A stretch of 64,000 nucleotides of DNA from Crossaster papposus (Eukaryota; Echinodermata; Asteroidea; Velatida; Solasteridae): the NCBI GenBank assembly GCA_037893245.1, contig JBAIAA010000544.1:620001-684000 (forward strand), written 5' to 3'. The notes beneath the pieces were generated by a model that was not told the DNA's origin, did not search any database, and saw only the letters and a program-made list of their open reading frames with translations. The first letter of the stretch is position 1; each line of letters opens with the position of its first letter. Positions 11,861 through 60,932 of this stretch are shown here, piece after piece. Both the position numbers and the translations under genes were made by a program.

Positions 11861-20194
<8,334 letters not shown>

Positions 20195-25438: not shown

Positions 25439-28400
25439 TTAAGGAAAATTTGACTTAGCAATGCATTCCTCCAAATCCACCAACTTGAAGCCCGATGTTT
25501 CCACCAGATAATCCATCATGAAGACAGAGTTCATGTAGGTATCGGATAGGTCGGTATCCAAGCACAGCACGCCCCCTCTGAGCTTGACGAGGGCATCGTG
25601 AATGAGGCGCAGTGCTTTGGGCACGCGATCCACGTCACGGTGACGGTAGTAGTTTTCAAACGTCAGCTCCTCCGGTGACCCTGTTCAAACATGGATTTAT
25701 AGCAATGACGTACACCCTAAAAACACATTGGTTGAAATAACCAACTGATTGGATTATGTGTCCAACCAATGAAATTGGTCAATTTTAACCAAAATAGCCA
25801 AAATAACCAATATTTTGATTTAAATTTACCAATATATTGGTTGGACACATATCTACCAATACATTTGTTATTTTCAACCAATCTGTTTTTAGGGTGTATG
25901 GGAAAACTGCTTCCGTAAGAGTCCCATAAGCTCCTGAATGTCTCATTAGTATTCAGTTCTTGGAGCAAGTAAATATATATTCGCCCCTGCTGGCAAGAGA
26001 TGAAATTACCGACAAACAGTACAGTGTTACAGGCATAAAAAATGTGACGTTTTCATATAGCAGCTTTACATCAATCTGAATTTGACTTTGTAAACAACAA
26101 CATGTAAACTTAGGCCAATATCCTGTACCCAAAATGACCTCGTTTGCGAACCAAAACATGGTCTACGTACTTACACGTTGCTATACACATACGGGCAAGC
26201 CATCTGCTTAAAGAGGGCAATCGAAAAACTGGATCGTTTAGTCTAAAATAGGATAAACATAGGGAAACTCGACCCGAAACCAAAACCGAACCGCCTAAAT
26301 AAAACCGATTTGGGTTCGGGGTACGTAAAATAACGTACGATCGGGTCAACTCGGCGTTGATGTAAGCGATGCTCGGATCGAATAGATCGGTTCAGTCACG
26401 TGAGCAACCGAAATACAACCGGGAAGGAATCAATTTCACTTGTTCAAGTTTAATCTCGCAGCAGTGTAAATACATTGTACGCTTTCTTAAAGGTAGGATA
26501 CACCATTTGGAGATGTTGAAAACAAAATCAACCGAATTATAAGGAAATGTCTTACTTATTTAAAAGTAAATAATGATTGTAGGCATCCAGCAAAATGATT
26601 ACGCTAGATATCCTGTAGTTCTTCCGGAAAAAAATGAATATTTTCCAAAAAATCGCGATCGCGAAAAAAACAAGAACAACATGCATGCTGGTTGAAAACG
26701 AACGCCGTTTTTCTTGCCATTTTTCTTGGCATCCATGATCGGACAGGTCAGTAACCAAGCAATTACCAAGGGTGTATCCTACCTTTACATCCAGCCATTC
26801 CTGATAATTGAAGCAATTACTAATCCTACCTTCAATTTGTAATTTGTCTTTTTAACTCGTGATTTACTCGATTAAAAAACACTGCATGACAAAACAGTGG
26901 GACAACCATTAACTTTTACCTTTTTTTCCCGGGAGTCGTACTGCAGGTTGCACAATTCTCAACCCCCTTCTGGTAATCTGCCTGATCATTCTTGAGATAA
27001 TTTCATCCCCCAACGACGGCAGGTAATAAGAGGACACGATGCCAATCTCCTCAAGACGCAAGATGGTGCTTATCAGCCCTTGCCGGAGCCACTCCGAGGG
27101 CATCATATCCAGGAGGCCCGGAGGCTGAGGCCCGTCCTCCCGAATCCCGATGTTGAAATGCTTGGCCCAGGACTTGACTGCCTCGGGGTACAGCTGAGCA
27201 AAGTCTCCGTAGACGAATAGAGTGGTGGAGACGCGGGGCTTGTGGGCGGCCAGGGTCGACACCACCGCATGTGCTCGTTTGTAGTTCATGCCCACGGCAA
27301 CAACAACGGCTACCGAGCTGCTGGCACAACTTGAGTAGATCATGCCACTCCTACCAGGAGTATGCACAGGGACCTGTTAGGAAATAAAAGATCACAGTGA
27401 AACGTACAACCGGAGCAGCTATATCGACGCTCTTACTATACCCAGCAAGATATGGGACCGGGCGACTGCCCTCTTAAGCCCTGTTTGCACTGGACTTAAT
27501 TTGGGCAAACTAACCGAGCCAATGGGTAACTTACCCATTTCAAGTCCAGTGCGAACAGCCTGGGTAACTTTCCTCACAGGTAACTTACCCACGCCGCGTG
27601 GGTAGTTTAACCGAGCCAAAGGTGCCCAGGAAGATTGACCAGGTCAGTTTAACCGAGCCAGAAAATCCAGTGCTGACGCGACGTCTCGGTTAAATCTTCC
27701 ATCACCCGGTGATGGAATATTTAATGTTGACAGGCTATAGTCGGGAACAGACGATCCGGTCGTCAAGTCGCGGTCATAGGTCATGCAGGGAGCCCTCTTT
27801 ATTGTTTTGGAGCCAGCTCGGTTAGTTTACCCATGGTCTCGGCAATTCTACCCGCGTCAATTAAATCCAAGTGCAGACGGTGGGAAGTTTAACCCATCGG
27901 AATGTTACCCGGCGTCATGGTACAGTTACCCAAAATGTTTATCCAGTGCGAACACGGCTTTAGTCCCCCCATACCTATACACTCCCTAGACTATTGTTAC
28001 CTAACACCCAGCCCCCTAAAAACCTCAATAGAAACCACAACATTCCGCAAGCACAATGCCCGCCACAAAGGAGTGGGGGGGTTTAGGTTTCCCCCTTTTT
28101 AAAAACAAGCTCTATAGGGGTAAAAATGGGTCAGGGTTACGTTGGAAAAAGTGAATGAGAACACTTGAGGAGATCACAGTCACTGACTGTGAGTAAACCT
28201 AATATTTTGATAACTACACAAATTCAAAGGAATGTCCACACAAGGTACCGGTATATAATGTAGACCTGAGTATGTGCATTCAAATAGTGGACGTAGAACA
28301 ATAGAGGACAATAAGGTCAACGATTGACAGAAAGTCCAAGATTGAAATTTGTTTGCTAAACAAGAGAAGAACAATGGGGAGTCCAATTGGCAGTTAAGGG

Positions 28401-31400
28401 TGTACCGGGAACAAAGGGCAACAATGGGACAATAGTACGTGCAAGTCCTGTCTTTAGAAATGGGAGTACATTGTACCCCACAGGCTAATGCTACATGTAT
28501 GTATTTTTAGATTTCTAAGGAGACAAAGGAAAACAAAAGAAGGGAAGTAAAGTAGAACAATAGAGGTACCCCACAACCAATGGCGTGCCCAATGGGGATG
28601 AGTTCGTATCCGCATTCAAATAGTGGACATAGAACAATAGAGGGTCTACGATTGACAGAAAGTCCACGATACAAAATTGTGTACAAAACCTATGGGAAGC
28701 CTTCCCAACAGTTAATTACAAACAAACGATGGACAATTGGGGGTCCACTACGAAAGGTGTTTACACACTGGTCATGCAGGTGAGTTTGTTTTTGATTGAA
28801 ATAGGAGACGTATGACAATAGAGGACAATAGGGTCCCCTATTTCGAAAAGGTCCCCTATTTCGAAAAGGTCCTCGATTCCGATTCGCGTTAAAAAGAAGG
28901 ACAGTAGGAGGTCCTTGATTGGAGGCGCGCGTATACACACTTGAGTTAGTATTTCTTAGGCACTGTGGACCTCCGAACAATTGATGCCCACAGGATGCGG
29001 AAAGAGGTTCTGGTTTGTGGACTTGGACAGGTCCACAGTCCGTTTTGCCTTCTCTGAAACAGAGCTTTAGAGGAAAAATGGGTTAGGGTTATATAGAAAA
29101 GGAAAGGGGAACAGATGAGAGGCCCAAATTCAAATTTGGGGTTAAATTTGGGGTTCTCTCAGTCCCATATAATTGCTTCATATGCTCTGATTCACTGATC
29201 ATGATCCGGATCTCTGCGCGGAACAAACTTTAAAAATCGAAACTTGCTAACATTTAAACCCCATTTTAAAGGTAGGATACACCCTTTGGTAATTGCTTGA
29301 ATTATCATGAATGGGTGAATTCGGGGGTGTATTATATAGTAAAAGTCGACCTGTGCGAGGTTTTACAATCATTAATGCTGAGAAAAGCAGGAAAAACGGC
29401 GTTCGTTTTCAACCGGCGTCAAGCAGTTGTTCTTATGTTGTTCGTAAATTGTTTTATTATAAATAAAAAAAAATCGTAACAATTACGGGATATCTAGCGC
29501 CATAATTTCGACATTTTTTACTTTTAAATAAGTAAGATATTTCTTAATATTTGTTCGTAGTATTTTTTGTTCGATATCTGCAGAAGGTATATCCTTAATA
29601 CATCCCTAATGTTTTTATATAGACAATCATCCAGTGCTACATACAATAATCCTGACCTTAATAGGGTTCAGTTCCTCGATATCTCCGTACGTTCTTCTCT
29701 CTCCAGCCCAGGATATCATATTCATGTCCAATTCCTTAATGTCATCGCGGATCTTATCTTTGCCATTCTGAACCCAGCCGGATGGTTGGTAGTCGTGGTA
29801 TTCGCCGTAGTACCTGTTCAGATGAGAACATTTCGGAATCTGCAGACATGCCCCGGTGGGTTTTGCATTTGTTTATATAGGCCCTATACAACATTTGCTT
29901 TTTCTGTAATTTTCAAAAATGGGTGGGTATTGGGGATTAATATTGTATAGTATAGGTTTTACCGGCCACTATAAAACATCTTTCCTTCAAATTAATCAAC
30001 TTCTGCATACAATTACGTCCGAGAAAATAAATCATACGCTTTTACAAAATCAATTAGGTCTGTTATCATTTAATTTTAACGTTTGGTCACTCTTTTTAAA
30101 GATTTGATATAGAAATACAGATCGAATTCGTCTTCAATTTAAAGAAATTAATCTGATGTGTGCTTGACTCAAGCACACATCGGACTAATTTAAGTGGCAT
30201 TAGTCTGAAATTGATTTATTTAAGACGAATTCAATCTCTGAATGCTGCCTTTCGGCAACAGCTTAGACGAAATTGATCTGCAATGACGAATAATCCCAAG
30301 CCAATGTTTAAAGGGAAACGCCACCATAGTTTATAATTGCATAATGTTAAAGAGTGTCAATTGCCATTGTGACTTGATTTTTATTTCATTTTTATCGGTT
30401 TCGGTAATCATATAAAACAGAGGTTTTCTCGCACTGCGCTAACCGTCATGCGAGCCGCCATTTTGTTCTAGCTTATCGGTACATCCGAGATATTGTGACG
30501 TAGTGTCTGCACCATCAGTACGCGAAGCCCAATCAATAGCGGCACTGCACGCGCAAGGAATGCAAGTGAATTCCTCTGTGTATGGCATAGTGTATACATA
30601 ATGTGTACTGTACATGTAAAAGTGGGCTCAAAATCATACGGAGGACCTGATGCTATAATTACTAGCTCACAGATGTTCTATTCTTCTCAAAAATACAAAA
30701 ATAAACGATAGTTTGTGGCGCGTCAAGTCGATATTCTGCACAGAAATGCAATACGTGTACTCGCAATAGTCGGGCGCCGTACAGCATACATCTGCATAAT
30801 GTAGTTGGCCGCGTCAAGGTAGGGTACCAGTGCGAACAACACGCAATAAAGCGATGTGCATTGAGGTGCAGACACTACGTCATAATGTCCCGGGTGAGGC
30901 GGGAAATTTGAACACTATGAACGCGCCCTTGTACTCCTGAATCGTGAATATAATAGACGCTTGAGTCGTTCTCGATAACAAATCAAAACAAATTCTCTGC
31001 GGAGTCAGTATGTTACCATATATTCTTGTAGACTAGGTAAAATATTATTGAGCCTGGAATTTCCCTTTAAATATAGTCACCAAATTTTGAAATTGAATGG
31101 TAAATGACTTTTTGGTTTGTTAAACACGTTTTAAAAAATGATCTCGGACAAAATTGAATGTGGGAGTTAGTGAATTTGAATGATTTCTTTTTCTCTGAAA
31201 ATAGCCGGGAAAACCTATATTAAGTTATTCCCATGAATGGTTTTACTTGTCTATGTATGTAGCAAACACGTTGTTGTCCAGCATATTACGCAGTATGTCG
31301 TATTCGGCGCCCTCAACGTCCAGTTTGAAGATGATGTAATCATCAGGAGAGAATGTCTGCGCAATCCATTTGGAGAGGTCAATGACCGGAATAGTCTTCC

Positions 31401-34400
31401 GTACGGAAAGTTTACGACCTCCGCCTATCAGGAGGCAAACAAAGAATCACATAGGATGTTGCACTTTAAAACCTGAAGGGTTAACAATTAGGGATCAGGC
31501 AAAGCAGATGTTTGAAGGAAATGAGAAAATTTCAAGTTACGAAAATACTTAAAAACTTAAAGGTGGCTCAATGAATTGGGGTTATGACGTAAGTGGTGTT
31601 TTTGTATTGGACTTGACTGGGCTTGGTGAGGACGCACTATACATTGGCACTGACGGGGTACCAGGAACAAAGGGTAACAATAGCGACATTGGTACCCGAT
31701 GAGTTTTTCTTTAAAAATCTATAGTATACTAGTACAGCAGATAGGTGATGAGATTATGCCTTTGATGATACAAGCATGGGATTTGGCACACATTCCGGTT
31801 ATATTATGAGAAAAATATTTGGATATAGGACCATCGCAAAATTTGAAAAACAAGCAATTTTCAAAATTTACAAAATGGCTGACATACTTGTTTATGCTAC
31901 CTAAAAGTCAAATCTGCGATGACCCAACATGCAAATAATATGTCATGACATACTCGGACTGTGTGCCAAATTTCAATTTTCAAAGGCATAATTCCCCTAA
32001 ATATTTCCCCTATCTGCCCCACTAGATTGGGCTTGGTTGGTCAAGGTTATGTTGGGTACGGTCGTGTTTTGGGGGGGAGACGTACGAATTAAATACTTTG
32101 GTTATGAAAACGTACCTGTTTTGTTATTTTTGCGTTCGGATTCGAATACGAAGAGCGTGCCGCCTCCCCATTGCATGTCGGCGCCGGCATTGAGACCCTT
32201 TTTTGGTCCCCATACCATCTCAGAATATGCCGTCATGTTACCTGATATAGGTTAATGAAAACCAATGCTGTTGGTAATTTATTGGGGTATTTACCAGGCC
32301 GCCACAGAACTTTAGAACGCTGAGGTGGGGTTTAACTATGAACCAACGGTTGGATCACACTGATCGGGATCGCTGAGACGGGGTTTGACTGTTAAACAAC
32401 GGTCAGATCACACTGATCGAGATCGCTGAGACAGGGTTTGACTGTGAAACAACGGTCGGCTCACACTGATCGAGATCGCTGAGACGGGATTTGACTGTGA
32501 AACAACGGTCGGCTCACACTGATCGAGATCGCTGAGACAGGGTTTGACTGTGAAACAACGGTCGGCTCACACTGATCGAGATCGCTGAGACAGGGTTTGA
32601 CTGTGAAACAACGGTCGGGTCACACTGATCGAGATCGCTGAGACGGGATTTGACTGTGAAACAACGGTCGGCTCACACTGATCGAGATCGCTGAGACGGG
32701 GTTTGATTGTGAAACAACGGTCGGCTCACACTGATCGAGATCGCTGAGACAGGGTTTGACTGTGAAACAACGGTCGGCTCACACTGATCGAGATCGCTGA
32801 GACGGGGTTTGATTGTGAAACAACGGTCGGCTCACACTGATCGAGATCGCTGAGACAGGGTTTGACTGTGAAACAACGGTCGGGTCACACTGATCGAGAT
32901 CGCTGAGACGGGATTTGACTGTGAAACAACGGTCGGGTCACACTGATCGAGATCGCTGAGACAGGGTTTGACTGTGAAACAACGGTCGGGTCACACTGAT
33001 CAAGATCGCTGAGACGGGGTTTGACTGTGAAACAACGGTCGGATCACACTGATCGAGATCGCTGAGACGGGGTTTGACTGTGAAACAACGGTCAGATCAC
33101 ACTGATCGAGATCGCTGAGACGGGGTTTGACTGTGAAACAACGGTCGGATCACACTGATCGAGATCGCTGAGACAGAGTTTGACTGTGAAACAACGGTCG
33201 GGTCACACTGATCAAGATCGCTGAGACGGGGTTTGACTGTGAAACAACGGTCGGATCACACTGATCAAGATCGCTGAGACGGGGTTTGACTGTGAAACAA
33301 CGGTCGGATCACACTGATCAAGATCGCTGAGACGGGGTTTGACTGTGAAACAACGGTCGGGTCACACTGATCAAGATCGCTGAGACGGGGTTTGACTGTG
33401 AAACAACAGTCGGATCACACTGATCGAGATCGCTGAGACGGGGTTTGACTGTGAAACAACGGTCAGATCACACTGATCGAGATCGCTGAGACGGGGTTTG
33501 ACTGTGAAACAACGGTCGGATCACACTGATCGAGATCGCTGAGACAGGGTTTGACTGTGAAACAACGGTCGGGTCACACTGATCAAGATCGCTGAGACGG
33601 GGTTTGACTGTGAAACAACGGTCGGATCACACTGATCAAGATCGCTGAGACGGGGTTTGACTGTGAAACAACGGTTGGGTCACACTGATCGAGATCGCTG
33701 AGACAGGGTTTGACTGTGAAACAACGGTCGGATCACACTGATCGAGATCGCTGAGACGGGGTTTGACTGTGAAACAACGGTCGGATCACACTGATCGAGA
33801 TCGCTGAGACGGGGTTTGACTGTGAAACAACGGTCGGCTCACACTGATCGAGATCGCTGAGACGGGGTTTGACTGTGAAACAACGGTCGGCTCACACTGA
33901 TCGAGATCGCTGAGACGGGGTTTGACTGTGAAACAACGGTTGGGTCACACTGATCGAGATCGCTGAGACGGGGTTTGACTGTGAAACAACGGTCGGATCA
34001 CACTGATCAAGATCGCTGAGACGGGGTTTGACTGTGAAACAACGGTCGGATCACACTGATCGAGATCGCTGAGACAGGGTTTGACTGTGAAACAACGGTC
34101 GGATCACACTGATCGAGATCGCTGAGACAGGGTTTGACTGTGAAGCAACGGCTGGCTCACACTGATCAAAATCTGGAACTGTGTAAAACAATATACCCTC
34201 AGGCTCGTTTGAATCACACTTTAATACATTTCTTGTCAAAGGTAATTTTGTTTGTAAATGAAACTAAGGCCTTTAGAGGGATGCCTACTGGAAGCCCTTT
34301 TTGGACATGGCCTAATTTAGAAGCGGCCTGAGATAAAATCCTTATAGCACTACTCTTTTAAAAAAGGAACAAGCAACAAAACTACCAACCGTCTTTGCCA

Positions 34401-37400
34401 GCTACGCCAACGGGGCAATGAAGGTGGTGCTTATCGTACGGTTCAAAATACGGTGCCAACCGCTCGTCGATTTCGAAGGAGTGGATGATGAAATCTCGTC
34501 CTCCGGGGTAGGTCTCGCGGAATAATTGAACGGTGGATGCCACGTTGGCGCCGCAGTCCAGCAAGATCTTCCGTTGTTTCGTTGGCTCCCATGTCATCTT
34601 GGGTTTGTCTCTGTGTAAATTTGGCAGAGCGTATACCTCTTGATCCAAAGCAGCTCTGTTGCAGAATAAAAGAATCACATTATCTCATGAAACTTAATCG
34701 GAGGGTAAAGGAATGCGGTGGTTTTGTTTTTTCAAAAGGTGGCGAGAGGCAGTTGGTCGCCGTAATGCTCGCATGCTAAATTCAACATAACAAGCCTTTC
34801 TTTAGGGGGGGGGCGGGGAGATTAAAAAAAAATCTGAATTTCTAACTATAGGTTTACCCGGACTATATAGCAACATTTGCACATTAATTTGTAAAAGATG
34901 CATTCGTTTTCGTGCGAAATAGTATGAACGTTCACAATCCCGTTTTCTATTTAACTTTTTCTTAATTATAAATTATATTTCCATTAATTATATTTCCGTA
35001 CGATTTCTCGAATGTGCACTGAATTTGGTATCGATAATTCAGTTTAGCGGTAATGGCAGGCTAGTATGCTTTTGAATATTGCTAGATGTTTGAAGAAGAA
35101 ACCTCAGCTATACAAGCGGACAAATTTCATAATTCCTGGTACAAAAACACGGAGCGTTATACAGACGCATCATGTCTGACATCTTTCTTCTACTTTTTGG
35201 TTTGGTAGAAGCGTGTGAATTGTAGAAGCGTGTGATATCGCGATTGGGACGTCTTGAAAAAAAGTGATGCCCTCCTTGATATAGGGCCTACCCCCTGGGG
35301 TTTGGTTGAGTACTTTTCTAAGAATTACAGGCTTATTATTTTATGAAGTCACAAAAGTACATTTCTTTGTTTACAATTTGTAGTGACTAAAAACAATCTG
35401 TTTGGGCACCAACTGTTTCATATACATCATATGACTAAGGACGTATAATTATTTAAGAAACTATAATGTGGTCATTTTGCTGACATTAGCTCGTTTCTGA
35501 CATATGGGTTTTTGAAACCCTTGCTTTATCTTCGATTCAGCTTTTTCTCCGCGGCGGTATAGACCGCCACGCATTGCTGCACATTTGTAATGGACTCTGC
35601 ACTTATACAGATGAAGCAAGATATGAGACTAAAGGACCCCCTTTAATTTGTGGTTTCTCGGGAATTCTTTATAGGTTTTTATGGGCAGTGCTTTAGGTTG
35701 CAACAGTCTAGTACCGTTTTCACACTACTCTGGTAATTAATCACCCGGGTAGTTGGCCATACCCAGGTAGAAACTAACCCGGACAATCGGTTTCACACTA
35801 AAAAGTTAACAGCGCAATTCAGCTTACCCGCTTTAGTGCGCACCCGGGTAATTTTGTAACCGCGTTCATCATGACTAAGCAAACGACAACCCAGAGAATG
35901 TGCATTGCAATGTGCATGATAATGTACTATTTCTGACTTGTATTTCTGAATTTCGCAATTGTTATGAAATGCACGTGACTGTATAAAATGACAAGCCGAT
36001 AGAAAAATGTGTTCCCCTGATGCTATACGTACCCAGCACGATATGTGGCAGAGGGGTAGGCTACCCCCCCCCCCCCCCCCCCCCCCCCCCCCGCCCCCCC
36101 CCCATTATCCCTATACACACGAACTCTCAAATTTGTATCCTAGTGGAGACATCTCTTTGTTCTCGTGTACAAACTGCTTAAAAAGTCGGGCACCTTTTTC
36201 AAAATGCTCCTATTTCAACCACAATTAATTTCCTGGGTTGAAATTTCGACCTAATATACCCTATATCATACCCTAACCCAAACACTAACCCTAACCCACA
36301 TCCTAAACCTATTTTTTGAGTAATTTGAGGCACACTCCAAAAATCTAATTCGGGAAATTCCCTGTGGCGACCTATTCATCTATAGAAATTTACCCTCCGG
36401 CGTCCTTTTGTCTCCATTATACACATTGTGTTCAGGTCTCCAGAGGGTACCGAATTTCAGATCACTCAACACTATTGTTACCTAACCCATCCCCCCTTGA
36501 AACCTAAAAAGAATTCCTGAGATTCCGGGAACACAATGGTCAACACAAAAGAGGGGGGGTTTTCTCTGCCACATTTTTGCTTCATAAATGTCCCCTGCCA
36601 TGTGGTGCATCATGTGGCAGCGATGCACATGTACGTGTTAAGACTGGTGCCTTGCATTTTAGTGTACGTAAAACAAACTTATCAAAAAGAGTTACCGAAC
36701 ACTACGGACTGGTGCAGTACGCACATGTACCATGAAGCGCGATATGTGGCAGAGAACCCCCCCCCCCCCCCCCCCCCCTCTTTTGTGTTGACCATTGTGT
36801 TCCCGGAATCTCAGGAATTCTTTTTATGTTTTAAGGGGGGATGGGTTAGGTAACAATAGTGTTGAGTGCGTGTACGGTGTAATGTATAGGGATAAGAGAG
36901 GGGTACCCCTCTGCCACATATCGTGCTGGGTATAGTACGTAGTACACTTAAAAATAAAGCCATTACAACAAGGGACTACTAAATAAATTACGTCAATTTT
37001 TGACATTCGCAGCGCGCACGCGCGCGCAAGGCTGGCTGCGCTGATAAAACTCGACGAACGGACCCGGTGTGGCGGTCTCACTTCTCTAGTCTAGTCCTAG
37101 ACCCTTGTGTTATTTCGGCGCCCACGCGCGCAGATTCGTTAACGCTGTCTCTTTTTCAAATCCCGACTTCGTGTGCGTTGGTGTCTCACGCATGCGTAGT
37201 TTACATAATGCAGCTGGATCCATACTCGCACTGGAGCCGACGTTTGACAAACGTACATGATTTTGGATTCCCCAATGGGTCTAGCACTAGTTGGCAATCA
37301 ATTGTTAACTTTAACCTTAGTTTTCGACGAATCTCCCTCGCTTTTCCGAGGGATCCAATCAGCGACCGAGTTTGAGCCTCATCATGAATTATTCATTATA

Positions 37401-44956: not shown

Positions 44957-44983
44957 TATTTGAACAGCCTGTATGGGTTGGAC

Positions 44984-45015
44984 CATGGAGGTAGGAAACA
45001 TGGAGTTAGCACGAA
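44984..45015. repeat. Left terminal inverted repeat of the P-type transposon
   Basis: 32 bp; the word CATGGAG occurs twice within it (44984 and 44999). Identical to the complement of 53540-53571. Confidence 0.92.
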
Positions 45016-45119
45016 CTGGCGATCACACAGACAGAGTCTCATGCCGCGGTCGTAAAATCAGTAGGACACCCCATTTCGCTAATCGAATTACCTGCGGTCA
45101 GCCGACTCTCGAGAGCGCG

Positions 45120-45197
45120 CGCAAAGCATTATGGGAGTAGCGGCAGCAAGGTTGCGCATGCGCATCGCATAAAGAGGTTGATAAAGATGGCGGCGTA
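45120..45197 (+). promoter_or_regulatory. Predicted TATA-less promoter of the PHD gene (NRF1- and YY1-like sites)
   Basis: TTGCGCATGCGCATCGC at 45152 contains a full NRF1 palindrome (GCGCATGCGC). AAGATGGCGGCG at 45185 is a YY1-type motif that overlaps the start codon. CATTATGGGAGTAG at 45127 resembles part of a ZNF143 site. A TGCGCATGCGG word also occurs near the opposite end (about 53337). Inferred from motifs only. Confidence 0.45.
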
Positions 45198-47766
45198 CGG
45201 TAAAGACGAGTTTTATTTCGGCTCAGACTTGAGCGATTTTTCCGATGATGAAGAATTTGTTGACGAAAGTTTGGTATCTGATGATGAAGGAGACATTCTA
45301 AGGTATTGTGTATGTGGTTTACAAGCGACCACAGACATGATTGCGTGCGATGGCGACGGTTGCAAAATCGAATGGTTCCACTACGAATGCGTTGGCTTAT
45401 CAGCCGACACAATTCCCGAAGCAACGTGGTTTTGCGAACTTTGTCGTCCACCTGTGAATAATGGCAAGTTTTCGTTTAAGAATTCATGTAAATCTATCAA
45501 TATTTCCCTCTTTTTGTATTTTATAAGTTTTGTCAATAACTTGAGATTACTGATTAGTCTTTATTAAAAAATTGCCGCAAAAAAAGTGATGCTCGTAAAA
45601 TTGTATAAATGTTGACACAATTTTTTAAATAAATTTGAACAGTTCCTTTGGCTAGAAAATGCATTTTTTTGCATGTTTTGCATCACGCGCGTGGAGATTA
45701 TTTTCTTTTTAAATTTCGTGTTGTGTTGATTACTACTAGACTGGCTAGCGCCTGTGTCGTTTGTCATTTTACTTTAAAATTTTTAAATATCCTGCCCTCC
45801 ATTTTTATTCCTTTATGCTACAACTCCAAGTACAATCATGGAGGTAAAAAACATGGACATTTTCTAATTACGCAAGCTAGTTTGGCAAGTCCATAAAGTC
45901 TTTTTTTCTCTTGCAGGAACAGAAACTACACAAATGCCGTCTTCAACTGCATCAACAGAACCAGAACCAGAGACAGAGCAAACGGCAAAGAGAACAGTCG
46001 CAGCATCAAGCTCTCTCATGACATTGACAGAGAGCACAAAGCCTAACGAGACTTCAAAGAAGATTCAGAAGAATGGTATGAAAATACTGCTATTTCATCA
46101 TGTGAATTGTTATTGCGACAAAACAAAGTAAATGCTGTAACTTTATGTATTTTTTTAATTGGGGGTCTCCATTTTTTCAGTGGCACAAATTTAAACTCTA
46201 ACATTATTAAAATATATATTTCAATTCCTGTTATGTACAGTACTGGGAATTTACAGTAAAAGTTGGAGTTGATATACATGTATAAAGATAACTTTTTGAA
46301 TAACAAAATTTCTCCAAACTTTTAAAAGTTAAACTATTTCTTGCTTTAAAACAGCTTTGAAATCTGTGCCCAAGACTGCTTCATCCGAGTTAGAGCAGGA
46401 TCAACCAGCTGTCTCCAATTCGTTGACCAGGAGTGCAACGTCTAAAGACAAGAAGAAAACAAAGGACCCCCCAAAACAGCCGAAAAAGTCAGGTAATGTA
46501 AATAGCTGTTGCATATCTTTTTACAGTTACAGAATGTTGGTCCTTGCAATTTTGTAAAAGATAACTACATATGATCTAAGAAGATACAATGTACATGTAG
46601 TCATACATTGTATTTATTGTACCTGTACCATGACTGGAGAATGGTGAATAACAAAATGTTTGTTTTATACATGTATTCCTTTTTCTGGGTTTGCAATATC
46701 TTCCTTTTAAAAATTTTTAATTTTTTTTTTCTTTTTCTCTGCAGCTCTGAAGAAGCCACCTCGTAAGTTTACAAACCAAGATGCAGACGAGAGAGCACCC
46801 CATTACTTCCGCACAGCCCTAGAACAAGCAAGACAACAGCCTACATTCAAATCTAGCTTTCCGTTAGCACTTTGTATTATGGGTCTGTTAACGGCACTGT
46901 CTGGATTAACAGAATCAAGTACATTCATTGCCTTCGCAGAGTCTATCGTCAGTGCCTTGTGGCTTGTCGTTACAGCCGGAGATGAAAAGTTTCTCAGGCC
47001 AGAGTGTATGGACCTGGTGTGGAACAAGTTTCACACGTATAAGATTCAAAGTAATGATCAATGGATAGAATTTCTTGAGTCAGTTGAAATTGACAGTAAC
47101 GGCCCACATGTTTTAATACTTTACCAATATCTTCTTCAGCAAGTTTTGAACTTGTTAGTCAAAGACCGTTATAATACAGATAAACCTCCCGAGCTGAAAA
47201 ACAGTGTTGATAAGCCAATAACAAAACAGGAGGAACAAGTGCTCAGATATGTTGCGGGATATATACCATTTGCTTTGCATAAAAAATTTATTAAACAGGT
47301 AAACAAAACGGCTTCAACATTTTGTGAAATTTTGAATTCATGGCGCACTTGTAGCACAGACACTGAAAAAACCTTCCTAGAGTATACTAATGAATGGATA
47401 CAACGTCAAAACCGAGGAGCTTTGTTTCATGTTAATGATGATGTGTATATATTGTTTAGAACTATGGAGACAGATACTAGATTGTTCTTATCTAAAGAGA
47501 ATTTGGATAACTTTAGAGGCATCGACATTAAGAGCAGCCTTAAGGACATAATTTTATCACAAAATCGTCTTCATAATTACTGGTGTAATCTTACACGGGA
47601 AAAAATTACAGGTGACCTTTCTAAACGACTCCTCAATTCCGTTGTGAACCTGTGGATTAAAATTAGAATTAAGGCCTTCATTAAAGTTTATTTGGATTTG
47701 AAAAAGGCCACTGGTAAAGCATCTACAAAATCTGAAAAGGCTTTGCGCAAGAGTCTTAAATCTTAA
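45187..47766 (+). CDS. Transposon-borne PHD-finger protein (4 exons)
   Basis: Exons 45187-45463, 45917-46075, 46355-46492, 46745-47766 join in phase to 531 aa. The first intron has a GC donor (AATG|GCAAGT); the GT alternative leads to a stop. Residues 15-36 are acidic. Residues 40-86 are a complete C4HC3 PHD finger (C41, C43, C54, C59, H65, C68, C83, C86) of the ING type: YCVCGL, MIACDGDGC, IEWFHYECVGL, WFCELC. Tyr40, Met51, Asp55 and Trp63 sit where ING proteins form the H3K4me3 cage. Residues 94-200 are a low-complexity S/T/K/E linker. Residues 200-531 are a helical domain with VLRYVAGYIP at 357-366, a phrase found in several transposon-associated proteins. No catalytic motif was seen. It lies inside the TIRs with the transposase, so a targeting or cofactor role is inferred. 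The stop codon lies within the TTAA target site of a MITE. Confidence 0.88.
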
Positions 47767-48040
47767 ACGAAGATACACCATTGGTAATTGCTTGAATTAT
47801 CATGAACGGGTGGATTTTATAGTGAATATCGTTCAACTGACACGTCTGAAGTTTGACTATCAATAATGCTGAGAGAAGAAAAAAAACGGCGTTTGTTTTC
47901 TTGTGGTTTTTTAAGTTAATTTTTCAGAACAGTTACAGGATTTAGCGCAATCCTTTTGCTGGATGTCTACAATCATTATTTACTTTTAAATAAGTAAGAT
48001 ACATCATACATGTAATTTGTTTCGGTATCCTATCTTTTAA
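47763..48040. mobile_element. MITE nested in the P-type transposon, GTAGGATACACC family
   Basis: TTAA at 47763-47766 and 48037-48040 flank a 270-base copy that starts ACGAAGATACACCATTGGTA and ends CGGTATCCTATCTTT. It is very close to 29270-29594. The stop codon of the PHD gene (TAA) is part of the left TTAA, so the insertion leaves the reading frame intact and supplies 3' UTR. Confidence 0.8.
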
Positions 48041-48287
48041 GTACGTGTACAAAGTCCAACTTATTTAAGCCTGATAACAAAACAAAATCATACTCCCTAA
48101 CTAGAGTATTTTACTAAAAATAAATATGTACAAATGTATACAATGAAAAGCCTATATAATCCAACTGTTTGTCCATGCAAATTAATAGGTATTTTTAGGT
48201 CTGAAAATTATACTTGTTGCATGTATTCAGTACAAAATCCCACTTAAAATCATATTTTACAAGCTTGTCAGAAGAACTGTTCTTGTA

Positions 48288-48354
48288 AATAAAACTCGGC
48301 TGCAAGGCTTTAGAATTCCGATCATAACTTGCTCATTTTATGGCTTTGTTTATT
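48288..48354. terminator. Back-to-back poly(A) signals of the two transposon genes
   Basis: AATAAA on the plus strand at 48288-48293 (PHD gene) and AATAAA on the minus strand at 48349-48354 (transposase). Cleavage 15-25 bases downstream of each would put the two mRNA ends within a few tens of bases of each other. An earlier AATAAA lies near 48117 on the plus strand. Confidence 0.55.
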
Positions 48355-48615
48355 CTCTTTAATCCTGTCGGGCATAGAAAAAAATGTTGCATCCTGACCC
48401 GCCTTTTTTTCTATCATCTCAATGTTGAAAGGACATGAATTTGGGATCGAAAAACATTTTCAATTCTGTTGGGAAACACTTGGGAAATGTTCTAGACTCT
48501 CCATCGACTTTGTACATAACCGCTGAATTGGCATCAGGATACTACAATCTTTCCCAAGGAGGTATTCCTCTCCCTCCCCTAATTAACATTTTGTTGAGAG
48601 CTTACTAAATTTCAT

Positions 48616-51600
48616 CTATTTTCTTCTTGGAAGTGGGGTGTCATCAATGATGTTGTAGCCATCCTCTCTATTGACATTTTTACTGTTACCCTTCTTGGAT
48701 GCCTTGATGCTCCTGGAGGCTACGTGAAGAGCTAACATGTTATGGCCAAACTGCTCCACAGTAGGGTTGTCCCAAGATCCACCTACGCCTCGCTGTTTAC
48801 TAAAGTACTCCTCAAGTGGATCCTGGTTTAGTTTCTCTGACAGGAGGTACTTTACATCAGGGTCTTGTAAAAGTTCTGTTGCCAGTTCTACAAATGAGTA
48901 AACTGGAGGGGAAAAAATAACACAAAATGTATTTATTTATGTCATTTTTGGATGAAGGGCAAAGTTTAGGTGTTCATGTTGTTTCATTAACATAAGTTAA
49001 CAAACAACCCTCTTGATCTTTCACCCATTGCCAAATAAAATAAGAAGTGGACTATTTTTTAGACTGTTCCTCGTCGTTGTAAACTACAGTAATTTACAAA
49101 CAAGAGATAACAAATAAAAGCAGAGTGGGGTTATATTTTGTTGACAAACCTGTAATGCGTAGTCCATCTGAAGTCTCCTTGCTGAGGCACATGCTCTTCT
49201 TGGTTTTCTGGTCCAAATCAGGGATGGCTTGAACTTGGTCTTCCCATTCCTTCAGGAACCCAAGAAAGTCTCCAGTAAGCCACTACAAATATCAAATAAT
49301 AACCGCATAAAAGGTAATATCAAGGGTGTAAAATTCTAGGCAAGCACAGTATTTTTTTTTTTCATGACTTAGTTTTAAAGCGGAAAAAAAAAAAACGATT
49401 TAAATATTTCTGAAAAAAAACCATGTACATGTACAATACAACTGTTTGTATCCGAGGTCTAATGTTGAACGCTGAATATTGAAACATTTTAAATAAAAGA
49501 AGATAGTACTGTAAACATACATACCTTGAAACGCCAATCATCCGGAGAGGTGTATGGGGCCAAGGCTGGTTTCCGGGACCGGATCCCCTGGTGAGTATTG
49601 CTTACGTTCAAACAGTCAAAGAACTGGTCCATGTACTGGATGAATTTAACAATTGATGATGTGTTGCTACGGCCCACAGACTCGAAGCAATTGGCAACTG
49701 TGCTGCTGAGTACCTAACAAATAGAAAATAAAGGTACAGCATTGAACACAATTGGGTTACACAATAGTGACAACTAATTTTATATCATTTCCACGGGAAC
49801 AAAGATTCAATGATTTATGGCTATATTGGTGGAAAAGCCTTAACATATCTTTCTGCATTTCACTGTATGAATTTGAGACACTACAACAAAAAGTGCTCAA
49901 CTTTAGGTTGGTATTAAATGTAAACATTATATTTCCAACATGTGAACAATATATGACAATTTCAAAACGTTACAAAAATTAAATGGCATACCTGTACAGC
50001 CATGTAAACTCTCATTCTGAGACTCGGGGTGAGATGAAGGTGTTCGTAACTAATCTTGTGCAATCTCCGTAGACCAGGTGATAATCTCTCCAGCCCAGCA
50101 TCCCACTCGTACAGTTGCAGCAACTGAATCCACGAGATGCTCTGCTTGTTGTACTGTATAAATAAAAAATGAAATTTCAATTTTACCCGTACAAAAATAA
50201 TAAAAAAGTTTTTAGATCTGCTTTAATGTAAGCTTTTTAGGTATAATCCTTAATAATTAAGTACATGTATTATCAAGGATGTGTTGCAATCAAATCGAAG
50301 TACAATACCACTGTACAAAACAGGGGTCTGTTCGTTCATTTATAATGATTTGTGGAAGTAGGATAATACCTAACATTTTATATTTCGGGAGCAAGATCAG
50401 GGGATTTTCATGAAAGCAAAAAATGTATTTATTAAACAGAATTAATATCACAAAAATAATTTTAATAAAGACTTACCACAAGATTCTTGGTTTTGTTATT
50501 GTAGCCCGAGTTCTCCAAGTTGTTGCGTGTTGTTTTCATTAGGTGAGGGACATCACAGACAAAGTATATTTTCCTTGCCGGATCAAGCGGATGAGGAGTG
50601 AAGTACGTTAATGCGGAGGAAGACTCGCATTTCTGTAATCTGTACAGCTTTCTGTTAGCCGATGCCCCGTCACTGACAAATGCCCTAACTTTGAAGCCAG
50701 CAGTTTCTACAAACATAACAGCCTCAGCAAGGCATGGATACAGCTGGCTACTTGACACACCCTCACTCGGATAGTAAGCCACAGGTGCATGAAGGCTAGA
50801 AAATAAACCTCGAATCATGAACACCAAAACATGCGTAGCCAGATGTACCTCCTCTTCACCTCTACACCGTTGTTCAAATTGCCGAATTTCATGAGCAATA
50901 TTCCCCATGTCAGTGAAGCCAATCAATTTGCCAGACCTTACCGAATATACCAGCCCTCTCTTCACTTTCATCTCATCGAATAGCAAGCTCACATTCCTTT
51001 CAATTTCTGGACGACTTTCCAGCTTCTCGTCCTCTACAATTCTTTTCAGCATTTCAAAACTAAAACCTGGTGCCACATCGGCGAAATGGCTGTAGGAATG
51101 TAGAGTGGTCGGGTGAGGAAGCTTGATAAAGCCAGACTCTCGCATCAAATTATATGCCGACGACGACTTACTGTGTAGAGCAATGCACCAGCGTATGATA
51201 GCTGGATGCCAGCGCATCTGCTTTCCTTGGGATGTTGCAGCCATCTGCTGGTCCCACAGAAGTCTGGCAGGAGACCCATCTTTTAGAAGCTCATTGATTT
51301 CAGGATTTGGAGTCTTCAATGTCGACCGGAGCATCTCCTCTTGTTTTGCGTCAACTACTAGACTCTCATCTCTTACCAGAGACGAAACTTTCTCTTGAAG
51401 TGCAGAATTTTTGCGCTTTAGGCTGCGTCGGTCAGCTTGGAGGGAGCTTGCCTTCTGCTGCAGCTGCTGGTGTGTCATCGTCTTGTTAGGTATTGTGGAT
51501 GATGCAGTGATGACCGCTGTCCTTTTTGCTTTCATCCGGCCTGCCATACCAGCTAAATCACTGCGATGTATTTTGCAGATGTCACATCGTTGACTTGACT

Positions 51601-52312
51601 TTGCTATCAAAAGTTTGCATCGCTTATGCCGGATCGTGCCACAAAGAACTACATCTTGAGGTGTTATTGATGTTGGCACCTGACCCTCCGGACCCTTTTT
51701 CAAATTTAGAAGCTCTCCGAAGTCGTTATTGCCCTCGCAAATAACACTGGTTGATATCCAGTTACATAAGTGGGTGCAGCGATCCAAATCAATGGCTGAA
51801 GTAGTACCTGCATCATTGCTGACATCAATGCCTAAAACTGTCAGAGCCCATGAACAGTTTTGAAATATTGACAGGTACACAATGGGGAATCCTGCGGAAT
51901 TCATCTTCACGATCTGCAGCTTGTCAACCGAATACCAAGTTTGAAGATGATGCTCCCTGGCAATACCTTCAAAAGGACGGAGCTCCTCATCAATGGGCAA
52001 TGGAACCACTCTCAGGCTGCAGCTGTCGCATTTAGACTCAGTGAACACTGCTATTTCTATGTTGCACGTGGCCATCTTCATATTCCGCCCACTGTACTTG
52101 GACCACCACTTCATTAATTTTAGCTGGCAGGGCTTGCATACATATGGAGGATGCACACTGGTGACATCATCTTCAACAACCACACCAAACGCTTCTTTAA
52201 TTCTTCTTGAAATGCTCTCTTTCTTGACAGGATTGCGCCCTTTTACTTGAGCGCCTGTCTTCCCACACAATCGACAAATACCCTGTAAACACTGAGAATG
52301 TGGACTGCTCAT
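48616..52312 (-). CDS. P-element/THAP9-type transposase with RAG1-like N-terminal zinc module (5 exons)
   Basis: Exons in coding order: 52312-50477, 50153-49992, 49713-49525, 49282-49150, 48902-48616; 868 aa, all phases consistent. Residues 12-75 are a zinc module (CRLCG at 13-17, HPPYVCKPC at 54-62) that is not a THAP C2CH finger. Residues 224-249 hold further Cys/His pairs (RCDICKIH). A coiled coil lies at about 279-316. Residues 366-410 match the helical region of P transposases. The RNase H-like core has Asp446 (LLFDEM), Asp548 (VSDGASANR) and the CDVPHLMKTTRNN motif (586-598). The last exon supplies the catalytic Glu in LNQDPLEEYFSKQR (798-811) plus DNPTVEQF. Length fits the family (about 750-900 aa). 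It would cut and paste the surrounding element, using GTP if it follows Drosophila P. A 5' UTR intron is possible (acceptor CACTCTAG ending at 52361). Confidence 0.92.
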
Positions 52313-52360
52313 GATGGGAAACAGCGCAACAGCAACACAGAGATACTCCTAGCTGTATAC

Positions 52361-53423
52361 CTAGAGTGAAAAAAAATATGTAAATTTCAGATTTTTATAA
52401 TATAACAACATTACTACTGTACAATACCGATACATGAGCAACGATCTGCAACACACAAATAATAACAATTTGTGCAACGTACGTTTGAAAAAAAAGAGGG
52501 CCCAGGCATACCTATTTTAAACAAATGTTTACCAGGCATTAGTTACAAATGTTTGGTTTTAAACATCTTTTTATGAACTAACATTTTCATGTCATAAATA
52601 TGCTGTGCCAGACACTTTAACGTTAGTCAATATTTACAATAAATAATTATTAATTGTTTATTATTTAATTAGCCCTAGACTGGGCCCTAATTTTATAGTA
52701 AGGCAGGCCTACATGTACCATGGAGGACTACTAACATTAGGCTCTAATGACGTTATCGTTTATTTGGAAAAAAACGTTATAAATATAAATGTCATTAATT
52801 ATTTGTGTACTTAGGATAATTTGGCGATTAATTAGGGCCTAGGCCTTAGTCCTATTATTTTATTTTTATTTTTATTAATTATTAAATAATTGAAGAAACT
52901 ATAAAAAATGCTTTTATTTACCCTATCAGTTTCTCACCTAATACTAGTACTAAGCCTACTACATGAATGTCAGTGATTTAATCATGAATAATCACTCCAT
53001 TCCATCTTGAATTTCTAAGTGTAAACAAAAAATGACGATTTTTCGAAAAAAAATTCCAGCAATGCTCCCGCAATCGAAATGCATTACCGAAAAGTGTATG
53101 AGCTCATCTTTTCATTCCTGCACTTTTCGCGACCGGTGGGTACTAAAAACACGGTAAAATATCACAAAACGTATCTAGGTAAAACCAGAGATTTCAACAT
53201 TCATAAAAATATGATTTTTGTCCAAACCTTGCCCAGGAACGTCCAATTTTGATGATCCAAACACCGATAGACTCAGAAAAACGCGATCAATTCAACGGAA
53301 AAGATGGCGCAGACATAACACAGCTTAAAACACTACTGCGCATGCGGTTTTGTTTCGAGTGTGTTTGTTCGAGCAGTGGGTATTACCTCCAGTGTGGATT
53401 TCGCATGACTGTGTGGCTTGGAT
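52361..53423. other. 5' region of the transposase gene, inside the transposon
   Basis: AT-rich, with no further coding exon recognised on either strand. On the minus strand GCAAG|GTTTGG near 53230 is a possible donor of a 5' UTR exon joining at 52360. The CG-rich part at 53280-53340 with TGCGCATGCGG may hold the promoter. Confidence 0.4.
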
Positions 53424-53539
53424 CCGCGGCATGAGAATCTGTGCACACAGAGCGTTATCGCGGTCGTAAATCTGTCGCGCGCAGCGGGTGGCTCCATAGG
53501 TTTTGTGCAGGCCAGATAACCACGTTAATTGCGCTGGGA

Positions 53540-53571
53540 TTCGTGCTAACTCCATGTTTCCTACCTCCATG
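53540..53571. repeat. Right terminal inverted repeat of the P-type transposon
   Basis: 32 bp ending CTACCTCCATG; perfect complement of 44984-45015, followed by the GTTGGAC duplication. Confidence 0.92.
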
Positions 53572-53997
53572 GTTGGACTGTGTGTATTCTGATCATTTGT
53601 AAATATGTTTTATCGACAACTTTTGGTAAAGCTGATGTGAACACTCCAGCTTATTGATGTTTTCGGATACGTGTATTAAAACAAATATACTCGTATTCCA
53701 TGATTACATAAAGGTGTGCCGTCAATGTATACTGTCCAATCTATTTTCGGGTTTCAATTTGCTATATTCTCTAGTAATAGTATGAAGTTATTCACCTCTA
53801 AATATGACAATACCAAAAGAATTGGATCTATTCACAATATACCAATAGTCGTCACATAATAGAGCGTGTAAGAATACCTCGAGAAACCGAACTTCCGGGA
53901 CCATTCTCGTAAAGGGGTCGAGTCAACGTGTAAAGCGAGTAGTTTTCTTGAAATACTTTGTTTTCACGCTGTTCCTTTTACTGAAAGTTATGTATAG

Positions 53998-59771: not shown

Positions 59772-60932
59772 AATGAACGTCAATATTCGCGTCAAATTTC
59801 ACGACTTTCCCCGAAAGTCACGAATATTGACGTCAATATTCGCGACAAAATTCACGATTTTCCCCCAAAGTCGTAATATTGACGTCAATATTGTCGTCAA
59901 ATTTCGCGACTTGCCTCTAAAGTCGCGAATATTGACGTCAAATTCGACGTCAAATTTGACGTCAAATTTCACGACTGGACCTAAATGTTGACGCGCATTT
60001 TTCTTCCAGCAAGCTAGGTTTTGGCTAGTCTTGCTCCAAGACCGAGTTTTTCATTTGTCCAGGGCGCGCCGTCCGTCTAGTCTATGCAGTTCTTCCATCA
60101 TCCATACTCAGAAAACGGGCTTATTGAGGGCGCCCTAGATTTTCACGAGAGATCAGTGGATTTGTTTCAAGTTTAGAAACAAATCTCGTGAACTGAACTT
60201 AAAGGTAGGAAACACCATTTGCAAATATCGAAGAAAAAAATTACTACCGAATTATTAAGAAATATCTTACTTATTTGAAAGTAAATATGATTTTAGGCAT
60301 CCAACAAAATGATCACGCCAGATATCCTGTAATTATTCCGAAAAATGTAATTTAATAAAACTAAATTCCCCGGAAGGCGCGCCCCGAACAAATGAAAAAC
60401 GCTGTCTTGGAGCAAGACTAGCCAAAACCTAGCGTGATGAACAAAAATTCGCGTCAAAATTTATGTCCGGTCGTGAAATTCGACGTCAAATTTGACGTCA
60501 ATATTCGTGACTTTGGGGGCAGGTCGTGAAATTTGTGGTCAATATTGACGTCAATATTCGCGACTTTCGGGGCAAGTCGTGAATTTTGTCGCGAATATTG
60601 ACGTCAATATTCGTTACTTTCGGGAAAAGTCGTGAAATTTGACGCGAATGATCGACGTCAATATTGACGTCAATATTCGCGACTTTGGGGGCAGGTCGTG
60701 AAATTTGTGGTCAATATTGACGTCAATATTCGCGACTTTCGGGGCAAGTCGTGAATTTTGTCGCGAATATTGACGTCAATATTCGTTACTTTCGGGAAAA
60801 GTCGTGAAATTTGACGCGAATGATCGACGTCAATATTGACGTCAATATTCGCGACTTTGGGGAAAGTCGTGAAATTTGTTGCGAATATTGACGTCAATAT
60901 TCACGTATGCGTGTCCCTCCAGGGCCATTATA
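59772..60932. mobile_element. Foldback array of GACGTCAATATTCGCGAC words, interrupted
   Basis: Left part 59772-59990 and right part 60440-60932 are built from AATATTGACGTCAATATTCG words with AAAGTCGTGAAATTTG spacers, in opposite orientation. The right part contains a 172-bp unit in tandem (60511 and 60683, beginning CTTTGGGGGCAGGTCG). The right end TGTCCCTCCAGGGCCATTA resembles termini of 23101-23358 and 37781-38313. Another element is inserted at 60012-60434. Confidence 0.75.
60012..60434. mobile_element. TIR element nested in the foldback array and itself containing a MITE fragment
   Basis: GCTAGGTTTTGGCTAGTCTT at 60012 is complemented by AAGACTAGCCAAAACCTAGC ending at 60434. Further inward CATTTGTCC/GAACAAATG and GGCGCGCC words pair as well. 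From 60203 a truncated GTAGGATACACC-family MITE (AGGTAGGAAACACCATTTGC) follows TTAA. Confidence 0.75.

Follow-up and report, generated by a model that had tools for sequence, protein, structure and literature searches.

Is the pairing of a zinc-headed transposase with a separate PHD-finger protein peculiar to RAG-type transposons, or can a transposon with a different catalytic core carry it as well? The question is raised by an 8,588-bp element within a 64,000-nucleotide stretch of the sea star Crossaster papposus (contig JBAIAA010000544.1, positions 620,001 to 684,000), referred to here as the window. The original prediction described perfect 32-bp terminal inverted repeats (TIRs), a GTTGGAC target duplication, an 868-amino-acid (aa) P-type transposase and a 531-aa PHD protein encoded in convergent orientation, and all of these features were confirmed. 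The element very probably belongs to a clade of two-gene P-superfamily transposons that encode a zinc-headed transposase and a putative chromatin-reading partner. With equal confidence, we read the window copy as a recent insertion from this cut-and-paste clade that appears to be complete. The two genes have stayed together in a diversified clade: six further families carry the same convergent gene pair as the window, and the pairwise distances of the two genes across the seven families are correlated (Mantel r 0.92, reached by 2/5040 permutations).

Element architecture and the P-type transposase

The ends of the element and the repeats next to them are as follows (positions are those of the window).

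44984-53571: transposon of the P superfamily, 8,588 bp, with two convergent genes between TIRs
44977-44983, unstranded: left copy of the 7-bp target duplication GTTGGAC, an exact repeat flanking the element
53572-53578, unstranded: right copy of the 7-bp target duplication GTTGGAC, an exact repeat flanking the element
44984-45015, plus strand: left TIR, 32 bp, identical to the right TIR (32/32)
53540-53571, minus strand: right TIR, 32 bp, identical to the left TIR (32/32)
45031-45049, plus strand: left subterminal repeat, inverted partner of 53424-53442 (19 nt, 95% match, 13-nt exact core)
53424-53442, minus strand: right subterminal repeat, inverted partner of 45031-45049

The TIR length of 32 bp excludes two further matching bases on each side, which belong to the flanking duplication. 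A chance origin of the TIRs was considered and rejected. Both gene models are predictions from sequence, and the stop codons of the two convergent genes are 849 bp apart. The open reading frames of the element comprise 616 and 295 codons; a stop-free run of at least 295 codons was obtained in 0 of 300 sequences simulated by a first-order Markov model with the element's dinucleotide make-up (longest run 213 codons, mean 119). All introns in both genes are of the GT-AG type, except for partner intron 1, which has a GC donor.

The transposase gene consists of five predicted exons on the minus strand, which together encode 868 aa without a stop.

50477-52312, minus strand: exon 1, with the zinc module, middle domain, coiled coil, helix-turn-helix (HTH) and N-terminal part of the RNase H domain (D446, D548)
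52019-52312, minus strand: RAG1-N-terminus/ZAD-like zinc module within exon 1, residues 1-98 (C13, C16, H54, C59, C62, C95, C98)
49992-50153, minus strand: exon 2, with the GTP-binding insertion (K645, V661)
49525-49713, minus strand: exon 3, with the later part of the GTP-binding insertion (S669, F698, D699, N702)
49150-49282, minus strand: exon 4
48616-48902, minus strand: exon 5, with the C-terminal part of the RNase H domain (D801, E804) and the stop

Three Pfam models were matched above their cut-offs, namely, TNP-like_RNaseH_N (1.8e-26), TNP-like_GBD (1.3e-10) and TNP-like_RNaseH_C (1.6e-5), and the P-element HTH model was matched at 0.0011, below its Pfam cut-off. The best match among solved structures was the Drosophila P transposase 6p5a (E 1.9e-21). 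Its D230, D303, D528 and E531 align to D446, D548, D801 and E804 of the transposase, and its K385, V401, S409, F443, D444 and N447 align to identical residues; which of the aligned nucleotide-region residues contact guanosine triphosphate (GTP) is presumed here. The 6p5a chain has 569 residues and was aligned up to residue 559, and the transposase of the element ends 36 residues later. Pfam scans of both the whole protein and the N-terminus matched no model of a THAP finger, which is usual, not universal, at the N-terminus of P-superfamily transposases, and no RING model was matched. An NCBIfam scan gave nothing of note, and no relatives were found among viral contigs and prokaryote genome contigs.

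By its RNase H-like core with a GTP-binding insertion, the predicted transposase is a member of the P superfamily. The 8-bp target duplication that Drosophila P makes was not observed; the duplication is 7 bp long in 11/11 insertions of the same family and in 6/6 of the other families. Since the catalytic domain is held to define the superfamily, we take the 7-bp duplication to be a variant within it.

It should be noted that NRF1-like (TGCGCATGCGCA core) and YY1-like (AAGATGGCG) motifs, as we assume them to be named, are present at both ends of the element (45153-45164, 53338-53345, 45184-45192 and 53301-53309). They sit upstream of or at the start of both genes and at a few other sites in the window, too. 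The motifs may point to TATA-less, housekeeping-type promoters.

The zinc module and the PHD partner

The original prediction regarded the transposase N-terminus as a RAG1-type zinc region and would have been contradicted by the lack of any link to RAG1. When an alignment of the zinc modules of the seven families (A1) was compared as a profile with the PDB, RAG1 chains were the top three matches (1.5e-5, 0.005 and 0.005), followed by the next match at 0.099. The profile aligned to RAG1 in hhalign with 89% and an E of 2.2e-6 over 36 columns, and profile similarity was found to RAG1 residues ~100-215. The Pfam model RAG1_imp_bd matched 7/7 zinc modules at E≤1 (best 1.7e-6), and zf-AD matched 5/7. 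Two members, C273 and C890, are above the Pfam cut-offs of both models and five are below, with C248 giving no match whatever at E≤0.1. Residues C13, C16, H54, P55, C59, C62, C95 and C98 are kept in 7/7 families. In a pairwise alignment with mouse RAG1, the three CxxC pairs and the HP motif appear in the same order, and the alignment score was reached by 0/5000 shuffles, or by 2/5000 if Cys and His were held fixed. A CDIC knuckle at residues 243-246 was tried as the third RAG1 knuckle and rejected, as 854/3000 shuffles reached its score.

Single sequences gave weaker values. Residues 1-116 of the window transposase alone matched zf-AD at 1.9e-4 and RAG1_imp_bd at 2.3e-3, both under the Pfam cut-offs, and compared with the PDB, the window N-terminus alone had RAG1 as its best match at an insignificant 0.58. 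A RAG1 fragment itself matched zf-AD at 0.0012, below the cut-off, with an approximate query whose letters differ from the PDB chain. The RAG1 link claimed at the outset was thus upheld by profile comparison, but it is not exclusive, since the module scores equally well against ZAD (zf-AD) and RAG1. The zinc module groups with the RAG1 N-terminus: a single sequence shows this at the limit of detection, the profile shows it clearly, and the two seem akin to ZAD.

A genome-wide RAG1_imp_bd search at E≤0.001 returned three other loci (C616:877455-877709, C630:281266-281757 and C117:2901849-2902340), whereas 14 control genomes gave nothing. The three loci exceed the RAG1_imp_bd cut-off, and two of them cover model positions 81-270. 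They are possibly true RAG-like, Chapaev-like or N-RAG-TP-like genes.

The partner gene comprises four predicted exons on the plus strand and encodes 531 aa with no stop.

45187-45463, plus strand: exon 1, with an acidic N-tail and an ING-like PHD finger; GC donor
45917-46075, plus strand: exon 2, linker, conserved in a second long copy of the family (C146)
46355-46492, plus strand: exon 3, linker, conserved in the C146 copy
46745-47766, plus strand: exon 4, with the ~340-aa C-terminal domain and the stop

The Pfam PHD model was matched at 1e-5, above its cut-off. In the PDB, the finger came closest to YNG2 and to ING proteins, at 3.3e-13 and weaker, and its 20 best matches were all of the ING/YNG type, to which PHO23 and png2 presumably belong. 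Y/F, M and W at the ING-aligned positions, which we take to be the methyl-lysine cage residues, are kept in 7/7 families. Of the RAG-like histone-reading partner initially proposed, one part survived, namely, a PHD finger encoded in the same TIR-bounded element. The likeness did not extend to RAG2 itself: the finger is ING-like, no kelch or RAG2 model was matched in the Pfam scan of the partner, and the invertebrate RAG2L PHD pattern given in an excerpt of PMC7204232 fits 0/7 of the family PHD fingers. An ING-like finger and the lack of a kelch match make the partner an analogue of RAG2 and no homologue.

The C-terminal domain of the partner (340 aa) is 39-67% identical between families, with a conserved core of EEEQVLRYVAGYIPFAL...QNRGGLFxVSDxVYLLFR. 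It had no PDB match, and in Pfam only weak single-member matches were obtained (best 0.0036), none of them convincing.

A dispersed repeat occupies 47760-48005 in the 3' part of the partner gene and ends at about ATTTACTTTTAAATAAGTAAGATA. Further copies, ~71-87% alike except for one short piece at 96%, are found near 26550-26631, 29263-29539 and 60263-60359 and in several other loci that were read. The repeat is probably a nested short interspersed element.

Copies and families in the genome

The genome searched comprises 1.02 Gb in 1,841 contigs. A 30-mer of the TIR had 28 genome matches, 27 of them exact, and the reversed control had 0. These matches form eleven pairs (window included) and six single ends, and the 16 other TIR loci were all read. 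The search for further TIR pairs that had been suggested with the original prediction thus produced ten, each flanked by an exact 7-bp target duplication (10/10). Nine of these ten paired copies are only 0.8-2.8 kb long. The beginning of partner exon 1 is still represented at 12 of the 16 other TIR loci, several times with stops; no transposase coding sequence was detected at any of the 16 at E≤1e-4. Most of the partner gene is present in the C146 copy (6.9 kb), disrupted by an insertion and a frameshift. Over 400 codons compared between the window and this single other long copy, itself broken, the ratio of nonsynonymous to synonymous substitution rates (dN/dS) of the partner was 0.26 (11 synonymous and 11 nonsynonymous changes; Fisher p 0.0024), a signal that suggests purifying selection on the partner gene. 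Among the loci seen, the window copy alone is complete within its family; it could perhaps mobilise the short copies, which have the look of passengers.

The six further families were read whole. They are 8.6-9.2 kb long and have perfect TIRs of 23-32 bp (duplication bases excluded), all of which begin with CAT(G/A)GAG. Compared with the window, the transposase first exon is 45-51% identical and the partner domain 40-51% identical. In the six families, the residues of the zinc module, the catalytic site and the nucleotide site are all conserved, except in C273, where S409 is T and F443-N447 are unaligned. The transposase of C890 is frameshifted.

The pairing was also evident from searches with each protein. 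At least 85 genome matches were obtained for the partner, of which the best 81 of 173 candidates were scored. Among the matches listed, 21 loci (window included) aligned over at least 200 aa of the C-terminal domain, 19 of them stop-free. A PHD gene standing alone elsewhere, named beforehand together with TIR copies lacking that gene as evidence against a two-gene element, was not encountered among them, as 21/21 adjoin convergent transposase sequence. For 18 of the 21, a convergent first-exon match lies within 12 kb; C430, C381 and C603 have convergent transposase 3' exons or an N-terminal fragment in the 1.5-kb flank, and at C165 and C525, two of the 18 whose flank held no transposase, the 3' exon is located just past it. 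The transposase first exon had at least 80 genome matches (best 72 of 250 candidates scored). Twelve of those listed span residues ≤6 to ≥611, none with a stop, and for all 12, a partner gene lies in convergent orientation at a distance of 2.6-4.6 kb. These 12 exons are not independent, because they fall into about seven score/identity groups, two of which have three near-identical members each. The partner family has another PHD exon, 54% identical and stop-free, at C544:691419-691706, 7.4 kb past the right edge of the window.

More distant P-like transposases, with 30-37% identity and alignable only from residue 152 or later, were found at C117, C463 (twice), C648, C164 and C725; C793, C56, C632, C901, C162 and C630 belong to the same class. 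Among the matches listed, no long partner match lies on their contigs, and C117 has a PHD-only match ~75 kb from its P-like transposase. In the part of the C117 relative that was read, Pfam matched neither the zinc module nor a THAP finger, and in the part of one C463 relative that was read, no zinc module or THAP finger was recognised by eye. Among the loci examined, the zinc module and the partner thus occur together. At C305:443888-502757, numerous broken pieces of transposase, as much as 92% identical to that of the window, lie clustered with no partner matches.

Elsewhere in the window, a 53-bp unit is repeated in tandem at 32314-34167, with 35 copies that are 95% alike. Judged by eye from the translations, an open stretch at 14909-18489 (plus strand) resembles a subtilisin-type protease, and one at 34385-34684 (minus strand) resembles an FkbM-type methyltransferase.

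Mechanism, rival explanations and known systems

P-element transposition is GTP dependent. By analogy, the P-type transposase would cut at the TIRs and join the ends, using GTP as a cofactor for synapsis, and insertion would proceed with a 7-bp stagger. As suggested by the domains, the zinc module could serve dimerisation, end recognition or DNA contact, and the C-terminal domain of the partner would contact the transposase. Its PHD finger could read methylation of lysine 4 of histone H3 (H3K4) and bring the complex to open chromatin. Tethering to H3K4-methylated chromatin may then bias where or when the element moves. It is possible, if somewhat doubtful, that the partner mainly regulates or inhibits transposition, or chaperones the transposase, and that the finger has no role in target choice. 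P elements are known to make repressor proteins, and the C-terminal domain is the longer, strongly conserved part of the partner; however, in 7/7 families the PHD finger retains its Y/F, M and W residues, which would be expected if the reading of histones is important.

Host proteins often contain PHD fingers, and the best PDB matches of the partner finger are host ING/YNG proteins, which would fit the recent capture of a PHD gene from the host by a P element, with the pair as a local accident. We consider such a capture highly improbable. The pair occurs in seven diverged families and with 12/12 of the listed long transposase exons, sequence of the first partner exon persists at 12/16 other TIR loci, and the distances of the two genes correlate. 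A local capture is refuted by the pairing in multiple families, and the partner-domain identities of 39-67% oppose one recent duplication. There is hardly any chance that the element is instead a RAG-like, Transib-derived transposon with RAG1L and RAG2L, even though a convergent pair between TIRs, a RAG1-like N-terminus and a PHD partner make up the layout of RAGL transposons as described in the excerpt of PMC7204232. Membership of this group is rejected because both the catalytic core, which is P-type with a GTP-binding insertion, and the partner, which has no kelch or RAG2 model match and 0/7 fits to the excerpted RAG2L PHD pattern, are different; in addition, 7 bp are duplicated here versus 5 bp for Transib and RAG (PMC8355894, in part). 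Elements of this kind may already be on record, as Aplysia N-RAG-TP or in repeat databases, but we consider this rather unlikely. Sequence like the RAG1 N-terminus does occur in N-RAG-TP, a mobile element from a mollusc, but the excerpt of PMC8355894 describes it as wholly RAG1 N-terminal-like and names no P-type core or PHD partner.

Several observations weigh against a two-gene clade with a RAG1-like module and a histone-reading partner. The RAG1 link, as judged from these comparisons, needs the isolated N-terminus or the seven-family profile: a Pfam scan of the whole protein gave neither RAG1_imp_bd nor zf-AD at E≤1, and the genome-wide RAG1_imp_bd search at E≤0.001 finds none of these elements. 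Residues N376, D379 and K400 in the nucleotide region of 6p5a differ in the transposase, in a stretch that aligns poorly. Histone binding of the partner is read from its PHD residues alone, and single-sequence structure models of the N-terminal 174 aa of the transposase (mean pLDDT, a predicted local confidence score, of 31) and of the C-terminal domain of the partner (mean pLDDT of 40) were too poor for a fold search. All seven families are drawn from one genome, the matches counted are those from the best-scored candidates, and the dN/dS value depends on the C146 copy. Partial or broken transposase matches without a partner are present at C305 (443.9-502.8 kb), C556, C513, C191, C359, C282 and C165 (215-219 kb), and C579 carries degenerate pieces of both genes on the same strand. 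It is quite improbable that P elements evolved, in parallel to RAG, a two-component recombinase consisting of a zinc-headed transposase and a convergently encoded histone reader within a single transposon, and that this clade or its relatives were a source of the RAG1 N-terminal region.

The clade of two-gene P-superfamily transposons can be compared with several known systems. With Drosophila P (6p5a/6pe2), it shares the RNase H fold with the GTP-binding insertion, the same catalytic residues, most nucleotide-site residues, a short target duplication and similar ends, which are CATG in P and CATG or CATA here. The two differ in the duplication, which is 8 bp in Drosophila P and 7 bp here, and in the N-terminus, where Drosophila P transposase has a THAP finger and a RAG1/ZAD-like zinc module is found at that place here; moreover, a second, PHD-bearing gene is present. 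ZAD (zf-AD) proteins likewise have an N-terminal CxxC...CxxC module, and 2/7 families score above the zf-AD Pfam cut-off. In contrast to these proteins, the module described here has a third CxxC pair and an HP before the second pair, as in RAG1, and is linked to a transposase.

The RAG1L-RAG2L elements (RAGL/ProtoRAG) and vertebrate RAG1/RAG2 share with the clade the PHD partner and a zinc module whose three CxxC pairs follow the same order, and RAGL transposons are likewise made up of two convergent genes between TIRs (PMC7204232, in part). RAGL differs in its unrelated catalytic core and its 5-bp duplication, the length reported for Transib and RAG in the excerpt of PMC8355894. In comparison to RAG2 and RAG2L, the partner has no kelch match, and its ING-like finger is N-terminal and spaced differently; in comparison to RAG1, the transposase has no RING model match. 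According to the section of PMC4411706 used here, Kapitonov and Koonin named the RAG1 module the Chapa domain and found it in Chapaev, Chapaev3 and TransibSU; among the transposable elements known in 2015, they reported it from no others. Chapaev and Chapaev3, compared by description only, also carry a RAG1-N-terminus-like zinc module on the transposase; their core is of the Chapaev type, and a PHD partner is unmentioned in that section. The Aplysia N-RAG-TP, by its description in the excerpt of PMC8355894, resembles the clade as a mobile element with RAG1-N-terminal-like sequence and differs in having this sequence only.

The clade shows that the RAG layout, i.e., a zinc-headed transposase and a separate PHD protein encoded convergently between TIRs, is not confined to the Transib/RAG lineage: it has also arisen, or been put together, in the P superfamily, an unrelated group. 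Phylogeny can now be used to test where the RAG1 N-terminus came from. The clade adds a conserved 340-aa domain without a known fold, and its several apparently intact copies allow functional tests. Next to RAG, it would provide an independent system for asking why a transposase would need a histone-reading partner.

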